Positions 12,403 through 47,979 of a stretch of DNA of 62,725 bases are shown here, piece after piece; position 1 is the first letter of the stretch, and each line of letters starts with the position of its first letter. Made by a program: the position numbers and the translations under genes. Below the pieces are notes generated by a model. That model was given only the letters and a program-made list of their open reading frames with translations. It was not told where the DNA came from and made no database searches. The DNA comes from Bacteroidota bacterium (GTDB lineage Bacteria > Bacteroidota > Bacteroidia > CAILMK01 > JAAYUY01): the NCBI GenBank assembly GCA_018698135.1, contig JABINZ010000161.1, positions 1-62,725 on the forward strand. The letters run 5' to 3'.

Positions 12403-12867
12403 ATGATGCAGATTACAGAACTGGAAGTTTGGAAGGCAGCAATCGAGCTGGCCAAACGTTGTTATGAAATTTCTGCTGATTTCTCCGACCAAGCACAATA
12501 CGGATTATCAGCCCAAATAAGAAGGACCGTAACCAACATTCCGGCCAATGTTTCTGCTGCAGCCAGCCGAAAGCATGGTAAAGAATCATTACGTCATTTA
12601 TTCCGTTCACGCGACCTGATTTATGAGGTAGAATCTCATATTTATCTCGCAAATAGAATGGGCTATATAGATGATGAATTACTCGAATCTATGCTGGAAA
12701 CTTTGAATACATCAAAAAGATTGCTTTTTGGCTTTATTAAATATTACAAACGATCTGGATCAACAGATTATAGAAGTCGAAGACACAATCCTGGAGGCAG
12801 CAGTCATTCGCATGATGAAATATCATCAACGGATACTGATGTTGAAGAAATTGATGATGACTTTTAA
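12403..12867 (+). CDS. Four-helix-bundle protein (23S rRNA intervening-sequence family)
   Basis: 154 residues. Residues 1-120 show the S23/four-helix-bundle pattern: an N-terminal LEVWKAAIELAKRCYEI, then LSAQIRRTVTNIPANVSAAAS, a helix with SLRHLFRSRDLIYEVESHI, and a final LETLNTSKRLLFGFIKYY. The function of this family is unknown; members are found inside rRNA intervening sequences and as free genes. The last 35 residues are a low-complexity tail that turns strongly acidic (TDTDVEEIDDDF). It lies 21 bp after gcvT and may be co-transcribed. A second, broken member lies at 41356-41713. Confidence 0.85.
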   Translation: MMQITELEVWKAAIELAKRCYEISADFSDQAQYGLSAQIRRTVTNIPANVSAAASRKHGKESLRHLFRSRDLIYEVESHIYLANRMGYIDDELLESMLETLNTSKRLLFGFIKYYKRSGSTDYRSRRHNPGGSSHSHDEISSTDTDVEEIDDDF

Positions 12868-40213: not shown

Positions 40214-41308
40214 ATGGTATTACCTTGTGGAATAGTTGGATTGCCAAATGTGGGAAAATCCTCATTATTTAAGGCCTTAACCGGGAATGAAACGGCAATT
40301 GAAAATTTCCCCTATACAACAACCGAATCAAATATTGGTGTGGTAGATGTTCCTGATAGCAGATTGAGCAAGTTGAGCGAAATGGAACAGCCACACAAAA
40401 CAACACCCAATACAGTTGAGTTTATTGATATTGCAGGTTTAGCAAAAGGAGCAAGTCAAGGCGAAGGTTTGGGAAATGGATTCTTAGATTCCATTCGTCA
40501 TAGCGATGCAATTATTCATGTCATTCGCTGTTTTGATAATGACAATATAGTTCACATTAACACATCTGTAAATCCTGTTAGAGATAAGGAAGAACTTGAT
40601 TTTGAATTACAGTTAAAAGATCTCGAGACTGCTGTAAAATCAATTGAACGTAATAGAAAAGCAGCCAAGGGAGGTGATAAAAAAATAGCCCAATTAATTC
40701 AGCTATTGGAGAAAGTCAAAGAGCATTTGGATGAAGGAGGATTTGTTAGAGAAATGAAATTCACTCCTGAAGAATGGAAAATGCTGAAGAATTATTCATT
40801 TTTGACAGGGAAAAAAATTCTGTATGTAGCCAATGTTGATGATGCCGGATTAAATGGGAATAAGCATGTTGATGCATTGAAAGAGTCAATTGCAGAGGAA
40901 AATGCCGAAATTGTTATTTTAAACGCAAAGCTGGAAGCAGAAATAGCTGAAATTGAAGATGACGAGGAGCGAAACGAATTCATGGAGATGTATGAATTGA
41001 AAGAACCTGGAGTAAATGTATTAATTCATTCTGCTTATCATTTACTGGACCTGATCACATTTTTCACTGTTGGTAAAAAGGAAGTACGAGCTTGGGCCAC
41101 ACCTAAAAACAGCACAGCACCTCAAGCTGCCGGTGCCATTCACTCAGATTTTGAGAGAGGCTTTATTCGTGCTGAAATGATAAAATTTACAGATTATGTG
41201 GAGTTAAAAACAGAGCAAGCTTGTAAAGACGCAGCCAAATTTCATGTAGTCGGCAAAGATTATATTGTGCAGGATGGGGATCAGTTGCATTTTTTGTTTA
41301 ACGTATAA
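40214..41308 (+). CDS. ychF: YchF/OLA1-type redox-regulated ATPase
   Basis: 364 residues. An Obg-related P-loop protein that binds ATP rather than GTP and associates with ribosomes. G1 GLPNVGKS at residues 9-16, G2 region NFPYTT, G3 DIAGLAKGA, and a YchF-type C-terminal TGS domain beginning LLDLITFFTVG and ending DYIVQDGDQLHFLFNV. Conserved length and ends. Free-standing gene. Confidence 0.97.
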   Translation: MVLPCGIVGLPNVGKSSLFKALTGNETAIENFPYTTTESNIGVVDVPDSRLSKLSEMEQPHKTTPNTVEFIDIAGLAKGASQGEGLGNGFLDSIRHSDAIIHVIRCFDNDNIVHINTSVNPVRDKEELDFELQLKDLETAVKSIERNRKAAKGGDKKIAQLIQLLEKVKEHLDEGGFVREMKFTPEEWKMLKNYSFLTGKKILYVANVDDAGLNGNKHVDALKESIAEENAEIVILNAKLEAEIAEIEDDEERNEFMEMYELKEPGVNVLIHSAYHLLDLITFFTVGKKEVRAWATPKNSTAPQAAGAIHSDFERGFIRAEMIKFTDYVELKTEQACKDAAKFHVVGKDYIVQDGDQLHFLFNV

Positions 41309-41355: not shown

Positions 41356-41713
41356 ATGAGTTATAAAAATCTTGAAATTTGGAAACTTGCGAAAGAAAAC
41401 TTAATTCAAATTCATAAAATGACACTGACTGAGCTGCTAAATTTGAAATGTATGAGGAAGGAAGTCAAATTCGCAGATCAAGCAAATCAGTTAGATCCAA
41501 CATTGTTGAAGGATATAGAAGAAGAAGATACAGAAATGATTATATTAGATTCTTAAACTTTCAATTTCTTCAAATGATGAAACGCTAGATCACTTGGAAA
41601 CACTATTTGAAACAGGATCATTAACAAATAAAGCAATTTATGAGGATATTCATTCTCGAACTGAGACATTAGGAAAAATGCTGAATAATTTTATTAAAGC
41701 AGTTGAGAAGTAA
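41356..41713 (+). pseudogene. Four-helix-bundle protein, two frameshifts
   Basis: The frame from ATG 41356 begins MSYKNLEIWKLAKENLIQIHKM like S23/four-helix-bundle proteins but leaves the family pattern after about residue 27. The lost parts are found in other frames: [20 protein letters not shown], then [19 protein letters not shown]...LGKMLNNFIKAVEK, stopping at 41711-41713. One missing base near 41437 (GCTGCTAAA for GCTGCCTAAA) and one missing T near 41560 would restore a protein of about 119 residues. A broken paralogue of the intact gene at 12403. Confidence 0.85.
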
Positions 41714-41742: not shown

Positions 41743-43284
41743 ATGGCAAATCAAGAAGACAATTTAAAAAAAATAATTAGTCACTGTAAAGAATACGGAT
41801 TCGTTTTTCAATCAAGTGAAATATACGATGGACTAGCTGCAGTTTATGATTATGGACAGCTTGGTGCAGAATTGAAAAATAATATTAAAAGCTATTGGTG
41901 GAAGTCAATGGTTCAGTTAAACAAAAATATTGTTGGAATTGATTCAGCCATTTTTATGCATCCAAAAGTCTGGAAAGCTTCCGGACATGTGGACGGCTTT
42001 AGTGATCCTTTAATTGACAATAAAGATTCAAAAAAACGCTATAGAGCTGATGAAATAATTGAAGGTCAGATTGATAAGTTTGAACAAAAGATCAATAAAG
42101 AAGTTGATAAAGCAGCAAAACGCTTTGGAGAATCATTTGATGAATCTCAATTCAGGGAAACAAATCCTCGTGTTTTAGCAAATCAGGAAAAGATAGATGC
42201 AATTAGAAATCGTTTTGTGAAAGCTTTGGAGGAGAATAATCTGGATGAGTTGAAACAAATTATTATTGATCAGGAAATAGCTTGCCCTGTTTCAGGAACA
42301 AGAAACTGGACAGATGTGCGCCAGTTTAACCTGATGTTTTCTACTCAAATGGGAGCTGCAGCTGATGGTGCAAGTGAATTGTATCTAAGACCTGAAACAG
42401 CTCAAGGAATATTTGTTAATTACCTGAATGTACAGAAATCAGGTAGAATGAAAATTCCTTTTGGAATAGCACAGATTGGAAAAGCCTTCCGCAATGAAAT
42501 TGTCGCTCGCCAGTTTATTATTCGTATGCGCGAATTTGAACAAATGGAAATGCAATTTTTTGTTCGTCCCGGAGAAGAAATGAAATGGTTTGAGTATTGG
42601 AAAGAAGCAAGACTTAAGTGGCACAAAGCCCTTGGTATGCCTGAGGAAAACTATAGAATACATACACACGATAAACTAGCACATTATGCGAACGCAGCTG
42701 TAGATATTGAATACAAATATCCCTTTGGATTTAAAGAATTAGAAGGGATTCATTCTAGAACTAATTTTGATCTTAGTCAGCATGAAGAGTTCTCCGGTAA
42801 AAAACTACAATATTTCGACAATGAATTAGAAGAAAGTTATGTTCCCTTTGTAGTTGAAACTTCTATTGGATTGGACCGGATGTTTCTAAGCATTTTATCT
42901 CATGCATTTACTGAAGAAAAGCTTGAAGATGGCTCAGAACGAACCGTTCTGAAAATTCCTGCTGCACTCGCCCCTTATAAAGTGGCCATTCTTCCTTTAG
43001 TTAAGAAAGATGGAATGGATGAAAAAGCAATTGAGATTTACAACGAGCTTAAATTCCATTTCAATTGTCAATACGATGAAAAAGATAGTATTGGTAAGCG
43101 GTACAGAAGGCAAGATGCTATTGGAACTCCATATGCTATAACTGTTGACGGACAAAGTTTGGAAGACAATACGGTTACCGTTCGCTATCGAGATACGATG
43201 GCACAAAAACGTGTTTCGGTTAATGAACTCTTAGTTGAAATAAGCAAAGAAGTTGCTATTGAGAATGTGTTGAAAGCGCTTTAG
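41743..43284 (+). CDS. glyQS: Glycyl-tRNA synthetase (alpha2, class II)
   Basis: 513 residues. Charges tRNA-Gly. This is the single-chain type found in eukaryotes, archaea and some bacteria including Bacteroidota, not the alpha2beta2 form. N-terminal CKEYGFVFQSSEIYDGLAA; motif 2 in GKAFRNEIVARQFIIRMREF; FEQMEMQFFV; motif 3 in VVETSIGLDRMFL; and the anticodon domain with PYKVAILPLVKKD and DSIGKRYRRQDAIGTP. Full length. Confidence 0.97.
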   Translation: MANQEDNLKKIISHCKEYGFVFQSSEIYDGLAAVYDYGQLGAELKNNIKSYWWKSMVQLNKNIVGIDSAIFMHPKVWKASGHVDGFSDPLIDNKDSKKRYRADEIIEGQIDKFEQKINKEVDKAAKRFGESFDESQFRETNPRVLANQEKIDAIRNRFVKALEENNLDELKQIIIDQEIACPVSGTRNWTDVRQFNLMFSTQMGAAADGASELYLRPETAQGIFVNYLNVQKSGRMKIPFGIAQIGKAFRNEIVARQFIIRMREFEQMEMQFFVRPGEEMKWFEYWKEARLKWHKALGMPEENYRIHTHDKLAHYANAAVDIEYKYPFGFKELEGIHSRTNFDLSQHEEFSGKKLQYFDNELEESYVPFVVETSIGLDRMFLSILSHAFTEEKLEDGSERTVLKIPAALAPYKVAILPLVKKDGMDEKAIEIYNELKFHFNCQYDEKDSIGKRYRRQDAIGTPYAITVDGQSLEDNTVTVRYRDTMAQKRVSVNELLVEISKEVAIENVLKAL

Positions 43285-45169: not shown

Positions 45170-46060
45170 TTATTTCTTTAATTTCTTCATCTCTCTTTCC
45201 TGCTTGAGCATATTCAACAGATACTGTCCATAACCACTTTTCACAAGGGGTTCAGCAATTGTTTGCAATTGATCTGAATTAATAAACCCCATTTTCCAAG
45301 CAATTTCTTCAATGCAGGAAATCTTCATTCCTTGTCTTTCCTGAAGAACTTCAACAAATTGAGAAGCTTGCATGAGTGAGTGGAAAGTTCCAGTATCGAG
45401 CCAAGCTGTTCCTCTACTAATCACCTGAACTTTAAGCTTTCCTTTTTCCAAATAAGTTTTATTTACATCGGTAATCTCATACTCTCCTCTTGCTGAAGGT
45501 TTAAGATTTTTAGCTATTTCAACCACAGAATTATCATAAAAATACAAACCTGGAACTGCATAATTCGATTTGGGTTGGCTAGGCTTTTCCTCAATACTTA
45601 ATGCTTTCCTATTTTCATCAAAATCTACAACTCCATATCTTTCAGGATCAGCAACATGATAGGCAAATACAATCCCACCATCCGGATTATTACAAGCTTG
45701 TAAGGTTTGAGGCAACTCCTTTCCATAGAAAATATTATCACCAAGAACTAAGCAAACATCATCATCTCCAATGAACTCTTCTCCTAAAACAAATGCTTGT
45801 GCCAAGCCATTTGGAATTTCTTGTACTTTGTAAGAGAATTTTAATCCCAAACTACGTCCATCTCCCAGTAATCTTTCAAAATTTGGCAAATCTTCTGGAG
45901 TAGAAATTATCAGAATTTCCTGAATTTTTGCCATCATCAAAATAGACAATGGATAATAAATCATCGGCTTATCATAAACAGGCATTAGCTGCTTACTAAC
46001 TGCTAAAGTTAATGGGTGTAATCGTGTGCCGGCTCCACCGGCTAGTATAATTCCTTTCAT
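45170..46060 (-). CDS. rfbA: Glucose-1-phosphate thymidylyltransferase (RmlA)
   Basis: About 296 residues from MKGIILAGG at 46060; an upstream ATG at 46078 lies in repeat DNA. It makes dTDP-glucose from dTTP and glucose-1-phosphate. Motifs: [14 protein letters not shown] (nucleotide-binding G-rich loop), [48 protein letters not shown] and [15 protein letters not shown]. It is separated from rfbB by the GxxExxY repeat array but runs in the same direction. rmlC and rmlD are not in the window. Confidence 0.96.
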
Positions 46061-46070
46061 AATAAAATGC

Positions 46071-46180
46071 TTAACCACGGAGGCACAAAGACACGGTTTT
46101 TATTTAAGATATCCATTGATTCTCCAATATTCATTTTAACTTTATTGTTTCTTGGTGACTTGGTGTCTTGGTAGTTAGAG
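46071..46180 (-). repeat. GxxExxY-element derivative, unit 1 (110 bp)
   Basis: Starts TTAACCACGGAGGCAC and ends CTTGGTGTCTTGGTAGTTAGAG. Internally it keeps ATCCATTGATTCTCC, the sequence that codes for the C-terminal RRING part of the GxxExxY gene, but nearly all of the coding region is gone. Confidence 0.75.
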
Positions 46181-46181
46181 C

Positions 46182-46324
46182 TTAACCACGGAGACACGAA
46201 GGCACGGATTTTAATTGATTGAAGATAAATATTGATTCTTCGTAATTCTCCTATTTGATTATTTTAGATTTAACTTTATTTTATTCTCTATATTCTTGTT
46301 GACTTGGTATCTTGGTAGTTAGAG
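46182..46324 (-). repeat. GxxExxY-element derivative, unit 2 (143 bp)
   Basis: Same ends as unit 1; almost identical to unit 3. Contains ATATTGATTCTTCGTAATTCTCC (here split: ATATTGATTCTTCG then TAATTCTCC), related to the gene's 3' end, plus TTAACTTTATTTTATTCT-type filler next to the gene's 5' side. Confidence 0.75.
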
Positions 46325-46325
46325 C

Positions 46326-46468
46326 TTAACCACGGAGGCACGAAGGCACGGATTTTAATTGATTGAAGATAAATATTGATTCTTCGTAATTCTCCTATTT
46401 AATTATTTAAGATTTAACTTTATTTTATTCTCCATATTCTTGGTGACTTGGTGTCTTGGTGGTTAGAG
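46326..46468 (-). repeat. GxxExxY-element derivative, unit 3 (143 bp)
   Basis: Near-identical tandem copy of unit 2, ending GGTGACTTGGTGTCTTGGTG then GTTAGAG. The high similarity to unit 2 suggests recent tandem duplication. Confidence 0.8.
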
Positions 46469-46469
46469 T

Positions 46470-46927
46470 TTAACCACGGAGGCACGAAGGCACAGTTTTA
46501 TTTTTCACTAAAATAACCATTGATTCTCCGTTTTATTCCATTCTTAATTAAATCAACGTTGAAATTGAGAAGAAATCCTAATTTTTTGTTTGCAAGCTTT
46601 AGATAACTTATCAGCTGCGCTTCATGAACTGGAAGCATTATTTCAACAGCTTTAAGTTCAATTATAATTTCATCTTCAACTAATATATCAATATAAAAGT
46701 CCTTAGAAAGAGTTTCTCCTTTATAAACTACCGGAATTCTCACTTCGGACTCAACTTTTAATCCTCTATTCTTCAACTCTTTTACTAAACAGATGTGATA
46801 AACTGATTCTAATAGACCAGCGCCTAACTCCTTATGAACTTCAAAGGCTGCATTGACAACTTTTGTTGCTATTTTATCCAATTCACTTTTGTTCATATTT
46901 CTTGGTGTCTTGGTGTCTTGGTGGTAG
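46470..46927 (-). mobile_element. GxxExxY gene with imperfect inverted ends
   Basis: The left end TTAACCACGGAGGCACGAAG and the right end (reverse complement CTAACCACCAAGACACCAAG in the sister units) match at about three of four positions, giving imperfect inverted repeats of about 25 bp around the gene. The right end stops 2 bp before the rfbB stop codon. No transposase is present; mobility is inferred from the shared ends and the derivatives. Confidence 0.6.
46498..46896 (-). CDS. GxxExxY protein (PD-(D/E)XK nuclease-like)
   Basis: 132 residues. The name-giving motif is GLLESVY (Gly27, Glu30, Tyr33). The nuclease-like core has Glu49/Glu51 in LKVESEV, Asp70 in YIDILVEDE and Glu80-Leu-Lys82 in IIIELKAVE, the D...ExK arrangement of PD-(D/E)XK enzymes, followed by QLISYLKLANKKLGFLLNFN. 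The family's function is unknown. It lies inside the nucleotide-sugar operon between rfbB and rfbA, in the same orientation, with inverted-repeat ends and three gene-less derivatives beside it. Confidence 0.9.
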   Translation of the reverse strand: MNKSELDKIATKVVNAAFEVHKELGAGLLESVYHICLVKELKNRGLKVESEVRIPVVYKGETLSKDFYIDILVEDEIIIELKAVEIMLPVHEAQLISYLKLANKKLGFLLNFNVDLIKNGIKRRINGYFSEK

Positions 46928-46929
46928 GC

Positions 46930-47979
46930 TTACCTCTTCGTATATTGCTCGTTATAATAACTTTTATACGCCCCAGAAGTAACTCTCTCCATCCATTCTT
47001 CATTATCCAGATACCAATCTACTGTTTTCTCAAGCCCTTCTTCGAAAGTAATAGATGGTTCCCAACCTAAATCAGTCTCCAGTTTGGTTGGATCAATTGC
47101 GTAACGCATATCATGCCCTGCTCTGTCCTTTACATAGGTAATTAACTTTGCTGAGTCGCCACTTTTACGATTCATTTTGCGATCCATAATTTCACACAAA
47201 AGATTGACTATATCAATATTCTTCCACTCGTTTTTTCCACCAATATTGTAGGTCTCTCCTACTTTCCCTTGGTGAAATATTGTGTCAATAGCACTTGCAT
47301 GATCTTCTACCCACAACCAATCTCTAATATTTAAACCTTTCCCATAAACAGGAAGTGGCTTATTATTTTTAATATTGTTGATCATTAATGGTAATAACTT
47401 CTCAGGAAACTGAAACGGCCCATAATTATTCGAACAATTCGAAATCTTAACAGGCAAATCATAAGTATGATGATAGGCTCTCACCAAATGATCTGAGCTT
47501 GCTTTTGAAGCAGAATATGGAGATCGAGGATCATAAGCTGTACTTTCTACAAAATACCCACTGTCTCCCAGACTTCCGTACACTTCATCAGTAGAAACAT
47601 GATAAAAGATATGATCAGATTCATCTTCCCAAAAAACTTTCGCTGCATTTAATAAATTGAAAGTACCAACTATATTGGTTTCAATGAACTCATTTGGTTT
47701 CAATATAGATCGATCCACATGGGACTCAGCAGCTAAGTGAATGACTCCATAAAAATAATGTTGCTCAAATAATTCGTTTACAAAAACTGAATCAACAATA
47801 TCGCCTTTAATAAATGCATAATTTGGCTTATTCTGTACATCTTTCAGATTTTCCAGATTTCCAGCATAAGTAAGCTTATCAAGATTACAAATTTGATAGT
47901 CTGGATATTTATTGACAAAAAGCTTAATTAAATGAGAGCCAATAAAACCTGCTCCTCCGGTTACTAATATCTTCTTCAT
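46930..47979 (-). CDS. rfbB: dTDP-glucose 4,6-dehydratase (RmlB)
   Basis: 349 residues. Converts dTDP-glucose to dTDP-4-keto-6-deoxyglucose with bound [15 protein letters not shown] (Rossmann), HLAAESHVDRSI, VSTDEVYGSLG, the catalytic YSASKASSDHL, NNYGPFQFPEKLLPL, and a RDWLWVEDHASAI stretch are all present. It lies 6 bp after the UDP-xylose synthase gene, in one operon. Its C-terminus abuts the GxxExxY element without loss of family residues. Confidence 0.97.
   Translation of the reverse strand: MKKILVTGGAGFIGSHLIKLFVNKYPDYQICNLDKLTYAGNLENLKDVQNKPNYAFIKGDIVDSVFVNELFEQHYFYGVIHLAAESHVDRSILKPNEFIETNIVGTFNLLNAAKVFWEDESDHIFYHVSTDEVYGSLGDSGYFVESTAYDPRSPYSASKASSDHLVRAYHHTYDLPVKISNCSNNYGPFQFPEKLLPLMINNIKNNKPLPVYGKGLNIRDWLWVEDHASAIDTIFHQGKVGETYNIGGKNEWKNIDIVNLLCEIMDRKMNRKSGDSAKLITYVKDRAGHDMRYAIDPTKLETDLGWEPSITFEEGLEKTVDWYLDNEEWMERVTSGAYKSYYNEQYTKR

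Follow-up and report, generated by a model that had tools for sequence, protein, structure and literature searches.

GxxExxY genes and their inverted word-array ends point to an apparently undescribed kind of self-spreading element

Introduction

Two described systems come closest to the locus analysed here. In the REP/REPIN repeats with their RAYT transposases (PMC3116915, PMC2817692), short palindromic repeats enclose a resident nuclease-type gene, and numerous intergenic copies that lack the gene are moved in trans. The 23S rRNA intervening sequences hold a small open reading frame between inverted repeats and are patchily spread; their mobility has long been suspected and is still an open question (PMC4990558).

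The GxxExxY family (TIGR04256/PF13366) is otherwise known by name only. We found no description in the open-access literature of a link between GxxExxY genes and word-array ends or miniatures; an earlier one is possible, for example in subscription papers or database notes. Here we analysed a stretch of 62,725 nt from a Bacteroidota bacterium (GCA_018698135.1, contig JABINZ010000161.1), hereafter the window, in which a GxxExxY gene and three gene-less units lie between rfbB and rfbA. The initial annotation had read this array as an undescribed self-spreading element.

Results

The array between rfbB and rfbA

Four head-to-tail units, three gene-less and one gene-bearing, all on the minus strand, lie between the upstream neighbour rfbB (dTDP-glucose 4,6-dehydratase; 46930..47979, minus strand) and the downstream neighbour rfbA (glucose-1-phosphate thymidylyltransferase; 45170..46051, minus strand), the start of which lies ~10-20 bp from the array. 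The gene-bearing unit (46470..46927) carries inverted word arrays at both ends. The proximal array, TACCACCAAGACACCAAGACACCAAGAAAT as read on the minus strand, occupies 46897..46926 before the GxxExxY start codon, and the distal array, TAACCACGGAGGCACGAAGGCAC on the plus strand, occupies 46471..46493 after the stop codon; the gene (46498..46896, minus strand) encodes a PD-(D/E)XK nuclease-like protein of 132 aa with intact catalytic residues. The gene-less units follow at 46071..46181 (unit 1, 111 bp), 46182..46325 (unit 2, 144 bp) and 46326..46469 (unit 3, 144 bp), of which the latter two share 96% identity. On re-measurement, the initial coordinates of the units (46071-46927) and the distance of 2 bp from 46927 to the rfbB stop codon hold, and rfbB and rfbA are correctly named and, as had been stated, undamaged.

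All four units start with TTAACCACGGAG and finish with a run of CTTGGTG words. A search of the window for the word pattern CCACNNAGNCACNNAGNCAC, with up to 3 mismatches allowed, yielded 10 matches, all inside the array, where 1.1 were expected and 0/100 shuffles reached 10. The imperfect inverted repeats said to bound the gene unit were recovered as an alignment of its two ends over 21 bp with 16/21 positions identical (8/5000 shuffles as good), the mismatches being confined to variable word positions; by a stricter inverted-repeat score, this unit is among the less symmetric copies (score 9). The end consensus given initially is one of many word types.

Unit 1 holds both word arrays together with ~45 bp of the 3' end of the GxxExxY gene, a similarity that 0/1000 shuffles equalled, and in a genome of the same genus both mini-units carry this 3' end clearly (0/1000 shuffles each). 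The similarity is weak for units 2 and 3 taken singly (182/1000 and 33/1000 shuffles as good, respectively). The gene-less units of the window are internal-deletion forms that retain both ends and part of the 3' end of the gene, clearly so for unit 1 and weakly for units 2 and 3; the initial claim stands for the shared ends of all three and for the gene piece of at least one.

In another species of the genus (G296), the same site is occupied by a frameshifted GxxExxY gene and two gene-less units, and the stop codon of rfbB apparently lies inside the element's outer end. Since the element is found at the same place in both species, it must have been inserted early in the history of the genus and not recently. 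In three genomes of the same order or class (G303, G305 and G049), rfbB directly adjoins rfbA, and the two genes either overlap or are separated by 2-18 nt. By this comparison, the site is empty in these more distant relatives, and the number of units within the array varies; local duplication probably raised it in the window. Local duplication in tandem, arising on the spot without any mobility, would fit the three head-to-tail miniatures, two of them 96% identical, and the occupied site in the sister species. As a full account, however, it is refuted by the empty sites and by copies dispersed within the window's genome and across phyla, and we attach almost no credence to it. In the window's own genome (C127; L012, L023), a word-array miniature is tandemly duplicated along with ~170 bp of its flank.

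The GxxExxY protein

The protein encoded in the window matches the full profiles of TIGR04256 (145.7 bits against a curated cut-off of 35, E 7e-43) and PF13366 (PDDEXK_3; 145.1 bits against a curated cut-off of 22, E 1.5e-42), and thus belongs to this family over its full length. Among 52 sequences, E30, Y33, D70, K82 and Q94 are invariant, and E80 is kept in at least 90%. The AlphaFold2 model (pLDDT 94) has its nearest PDB fold in SSO0001 (4ic1, E 1.7e-4), a Cas4 protein, followed by an Argonaute-associated Cas4-family protein, LHK-Exo and lambda exonuclease; a search by sequence found no solved homologue. With invariant E, D, K and Q at the PD-(D/E)XK site, a nearly invariant E in ExK and the right fold in the model, the protein can be placed in this superfamily, and it models as a Cas4/lambda-exonuclease-like nuclease, in agreement with the D...ExK nuclease-like core noticed at first.

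No transposase domain was found in the window protein with the TIGR04256/PF13366, PADLOC and PHROGs profiles. No known anti-phage defence model matched it either, the PADLOC and PHROGs matches being weak (Cas4 E 0.024, CRISPR-associated E 0.002), and a known defence system was rejected on this ground. Cargo of phages or plasmids was likewise rejected, as no phage records match and plasmids do so in 7/72,556 cases.

Word arrays at the ends of GxxExxY genes

The inverted ends generalise to other GxxExxY genes. For 74 genes from the phylum, the two flanks match as inverted repeats with a mean score of 17.5, against 9.8 for mismatched pairs and 8.9 for distal controls; a score of at least 12 was reached by 63/74 genes and by 1 distal control, and a gene's own partner flank was the best of all 74 for 28 genes. 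Similarly, 76 genes from ~20 phyla, archaea included, gave a mean score of 20.2 (10.1 for mismatched pairs, 8.9 for distal controls), and 62 of the 76 have inverted ends, versus 0/62 controls. We scored words of the form C[AG]CnRA[GT], for example CACAGAG or CGCAAAG, in a set of 159 GxxExxY genes drawn from ~20 phyla. With patterns that were picked after inspection of the data, word runs were found at both ends of 103 genes, at one end of 42 and at neither end of 14, that is, at one end or more in 145/159, compared with 1/159 and 2/159 of the distal control flanks. The words are spaced 8-10 bp apart, and some copies carry other words, among them one (L005) in the window's own genome.

Furthermore, the CAC or CGC type of the words agrees between the two ends of a gene (rho 0.92, n=103), and mapping it on the protein tree takes 28 changes, against 42.5 +/- 3.0 when shuffled. 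The word type thus belongs to the protein: it is specific for each gene and follows the GxxExxY tree, so that the GxxExxY families co-vary with their ends. The paralogues of two genomes (G236 and G148) differ in their words within one genome while each matches its relative in the other; this match is partly due to shared descent of the whole locus.

In a Deltaproteobacteria MAG, a full miniature lies on either side of a GxxExxY gene; the two are near-identical, and the loop of each contains a terminator-like hairpin. Three genomes from two families have the GxxExxY unit between membrane-protein-like and arsC-like genes (names read by eye).

Gene-less copies across genomes

In the window's genome, the word pattern gave 23 matches, whereas the reversed control gave 0. 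About 10 word-bearing loci of this genome have no GxxExxY gene, the smallest being a hairpin of ~55 bp with a stop codon on one side and a start codon on the other.

Across the phylum, the GxxExxY gene is present in 152/296 genomes, patchily and in 1-12 copies. It is found in 49/50 genomes with at least 5 matches to CAC words and in 46/47 with at least 10 matches to CGC words, the second word type tested in the same phylum. In the union of both sets, 72 of the 74 word-rich genomes carry the gene (p=4e-23; p=4e-17 when one large gene-poor family is left out), with p-values that are inflated by kinship of the genomes; a contrast within one genus is independent of that, since CGC matches there range from 0 to 176 per genome and the high-count genomes are all gene-positive. 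The matches far exceed what the genes' own ends would supply, one genome having 176 with 4 genes and another 27 CAC matches with 1 gene. In this phylum, abundant gene-less arrays therefore occur almost only in gene-carrying genomes. Ends that bear no relation to GxxExxY genes, which would have spoken against the initial reading, are not what we observed: the ends are tied to the gene both in the 145/159 genes and in the 72/74 word-rich genomes, and the dispersed gene-less copies are tied to its presence.

Empty, filled and replaced sites

Empty sites were found at rfbB-rfbA, scpA-scpB, nuoF-nuoG and a convergent gene pair (the scpA/scpB and nuoF/nuoG names being read by eye from translations). 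Between scpA and scpB in genus g57, four species carry a gene unit and G038 retains a decayed remnant with both ends, while the site is empty in G065, G069 and G175. Between nuoF and nuoG, G065 and G069 have no insert; G100, G163, G054 and G026 carry a CACAGAG miniature there, and G038 and G175 a four-helix-bundle gene with inverted words of its own. At a third site, a single operon junction in eight congeners of g57 (L230-L235), the inserts are inverted repeats of different families, including a CATTGCGA...AGCAATCT type. At two convergent sites (L173/L248 and L376/L381/L385/L397), a miniature occupies the position of the relatives' likely intrinsic terminator.

For other copies in the window's genome, comparison with a shortened query sequence gave few clear empty sites, because the relatives are distant. 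No clean target-site duplication was read at several sites in two genera, where the flanks, 68-94% identical, are too diverged for junctions to be placed at the level of single bases.

Placement, selection and the level at which the ends act

Sense placement between co-oriented neighbours prevails among the gene units (67, against 3 antisense, 17 convergent and 12 divergent). Their median distance to the upstream stop codon is 9 nt, and of the 104 ends that face a stop codon, 64 are at most 15 nt away from it. Such sense placement is also expected of ordinary operon genes, and it is not expected of a random inserter unless antisense copies are lost. Close gene pairs mostly share both neighbours, with few at different places; since they are mostly at orthologous loci, gene-bearing copies move rarely. 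The dN/dS between orthologous GxxExxY copies is 0.03-0.12, indicating purifying selection, and a low value at fixed loci also fits a role that serves the host.

GxxExxY might thus be a host-serving or addictive gene, such as a defence or regulatory nuclease, with the arrays as its operator or binding sites and the dispersed copies as a regulon or a product of passive spread. The strong purifying selection at orthologous loci and the operon-sense placement, as for an ordinary gene, favour it. We nevertheless regard this as improbable, since the gene is patchy, being present in half of the genomes in 1-12 copies, gene remnants are retained in miniatures, empty sites exist, and the PADLOC and PHROGs matches are weak.

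A different possibility is that the element acts at the RNA level, its ends pairing in the transcript and the gene being looped out or excised, as in a 23S rRNA intervening sequence, with which it shares the outline of a small open reading frame between inverted repeats (PMC4990558). Differences between the arms, read as sense RNA, comprise 229 wobble-compatible and 250 incompatible transitions (p=0.36), and there is no match to any Rfam family. Conservation for pairing in the transcript would have left more G-U than A-C differences; no such excess is seen, so the arms are not maintained for it and look like DNA sites. RNA pairing of the ends was rejected on these two results, and we consider an RNA-level element very improbable.

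Four-helix-bundle genes in the same architecture

Genes for four-helix-bundle proteins of the 23S intervening-sequence type have inverted ends in 24/29 cases. Their words are private and strictly spaced at 7 bp (L330-L359), in contrast to 8-10 bp for GxxExxY. Of 21 scorable genes, 18 lie in operon sense, a few bp from the neighbouring stop and start codons. We know of no nuclease motif in four-helix-bundle proteins. Because these genes share both architecture and sites with GxxExxY, the mover may not be a nuclease: the words of each family may be served by its own protein, or both families may be moved by some third party.

In this latter case, the arrays or hairpins would be moved by other shared machinery (host recombination, replication or some other enzyme), and the GxxExxY and four-helix-bundle genes would be passengers or helpers. 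That two unrelated protein families have a common architecture and even common sites, and that a single site in eight congeners is taken now by one inverted-repeat sequence, now by another, argue for such machinery. Word type and spacing are, however, specific for each family, with words 8-10 bp apart around GxxExxY and strictly 7 bp apart around four-helix-bundle genes; the words follow the GxxExxY tree, and word-rich genomes are nearly always gene-positive; we thus hold shared machinery to be unlikely, if worth keeping in mind.

The window itself contains two genes of the four-helix-bundle type. At 12403-12867 (plus strand), an intact TIGR02436 gene lies between two same-strand genes and has a weak inverted flank match (score 10). 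At 41424-41704 (plus strand), a gene broken by in-frame stops lies between a gene ending at 41308 and one starting at 41743.

Discussion

The results point to a self-spreading element of a kind that is widespread and apparently undescribed. The initial proposal to this effect is partly supported: the tie between ends and gene, the empty sites and the dispersed copies agree with it, and the role in insertion that it suggested for the nuclease-like protein is a hypothesis. The insertion between rfbB and rfbA is not recent. We lean towards reading the GxxExxY gene and its ends as the two parts of a single genetic element, in which the predicted nuclease acts on the arrays as double-stranded DNA sites and so spreads the element and its miniatures.

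In such an element, the inverted arrays of CRCnRAG words, ~8-10 bp apart, would serve as double-stranded DNA recognition sites, and the Cas4/lambda-exonuclease-like PD-(D/E)XK nuclease would most likely recognise and cut them in cis and in trans. Cutting at the arrays, or at cruciforms that they may form, would start the copying of the element and the miniatures, and over evolutionary time copies would reach new places; most of these are operon junctions beside stop codons, and two correspond to the site of a likely intrinsic terminator. Copies with the gene would persist after landing in sense in an operon, where the insertion would supply expression without a promoter of their own; the persistence of sense copies in operons suggests a reliance on host transcription. 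The miniatures would arise through internal deletion and then multiply.

More tentatively, word-array elements could be a general class in bacteria and archaea, a reading that we entertain without leaning to it. Each would consist of a short gene within inverted arrays of a private, co-evolving word, with miniatures at operon junctions or terminators. GxxExxY (8-10 bp spacing) and the four-helix-bundle genes (7 bp) would be unrelated branches, and the 23S intervening sequences would be ribosomal outliers of the second.

If GxxExxY genes and their ends do form such an element, a family that is annotated but functionless, and present in half of the sampled genomes of the phylum, would acquire a context and a role open to testing. 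Intergenic hairpin repeats, a large class, would be accounted for, and the known mobile-type systems would be joined by one that relies on a Cas4-like nuclease where others have a transposase. It would also give a handle on the movement of 23S rRNA intervening sequences, and the pairing of one protein with one word over many copies would be a natural data set for the specificity of protein-DNA recognition.

Among known systems, insertion sequences with their MITEs share with GxxExxY the inverted ends and the internal-deletion miniatures that keep both ends. Unlike them, however, the GxxExxY element has no transposase domain, shows a strong sense bias, and ends in imperfect word arrays instead of fixed ends. 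The 23S intervening sequences are located in rRNA, from which RNase III removes them, whereas GxxExxY units lie between protein genes and their arms are free of an RNA-pairing constraint; the S23/four-helix-bundle open reading frame is unrelated to GxxExxY, although four-helix-bundle genes share sites with GxxExxY-type miniatures. The REPIN/RAYT system is alike in that dispersed gene-less palindromic repeats are tied to a gene, as here in the 72/74 word-rich genomes. It differs in its enzyme, RAYT being a Y1 HUH tyrosine transposase and GxxExxY a PD-(D/E)XK protein (PDDEXK_3), in its GTAG- or CGTC-tagged palindromes in place of word arrays, and in that GxxExxY has many diverse copies per genome. 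The element resembles REPIN/RAYT in its working principle, with an unrelated enzyme and unrelated ends.
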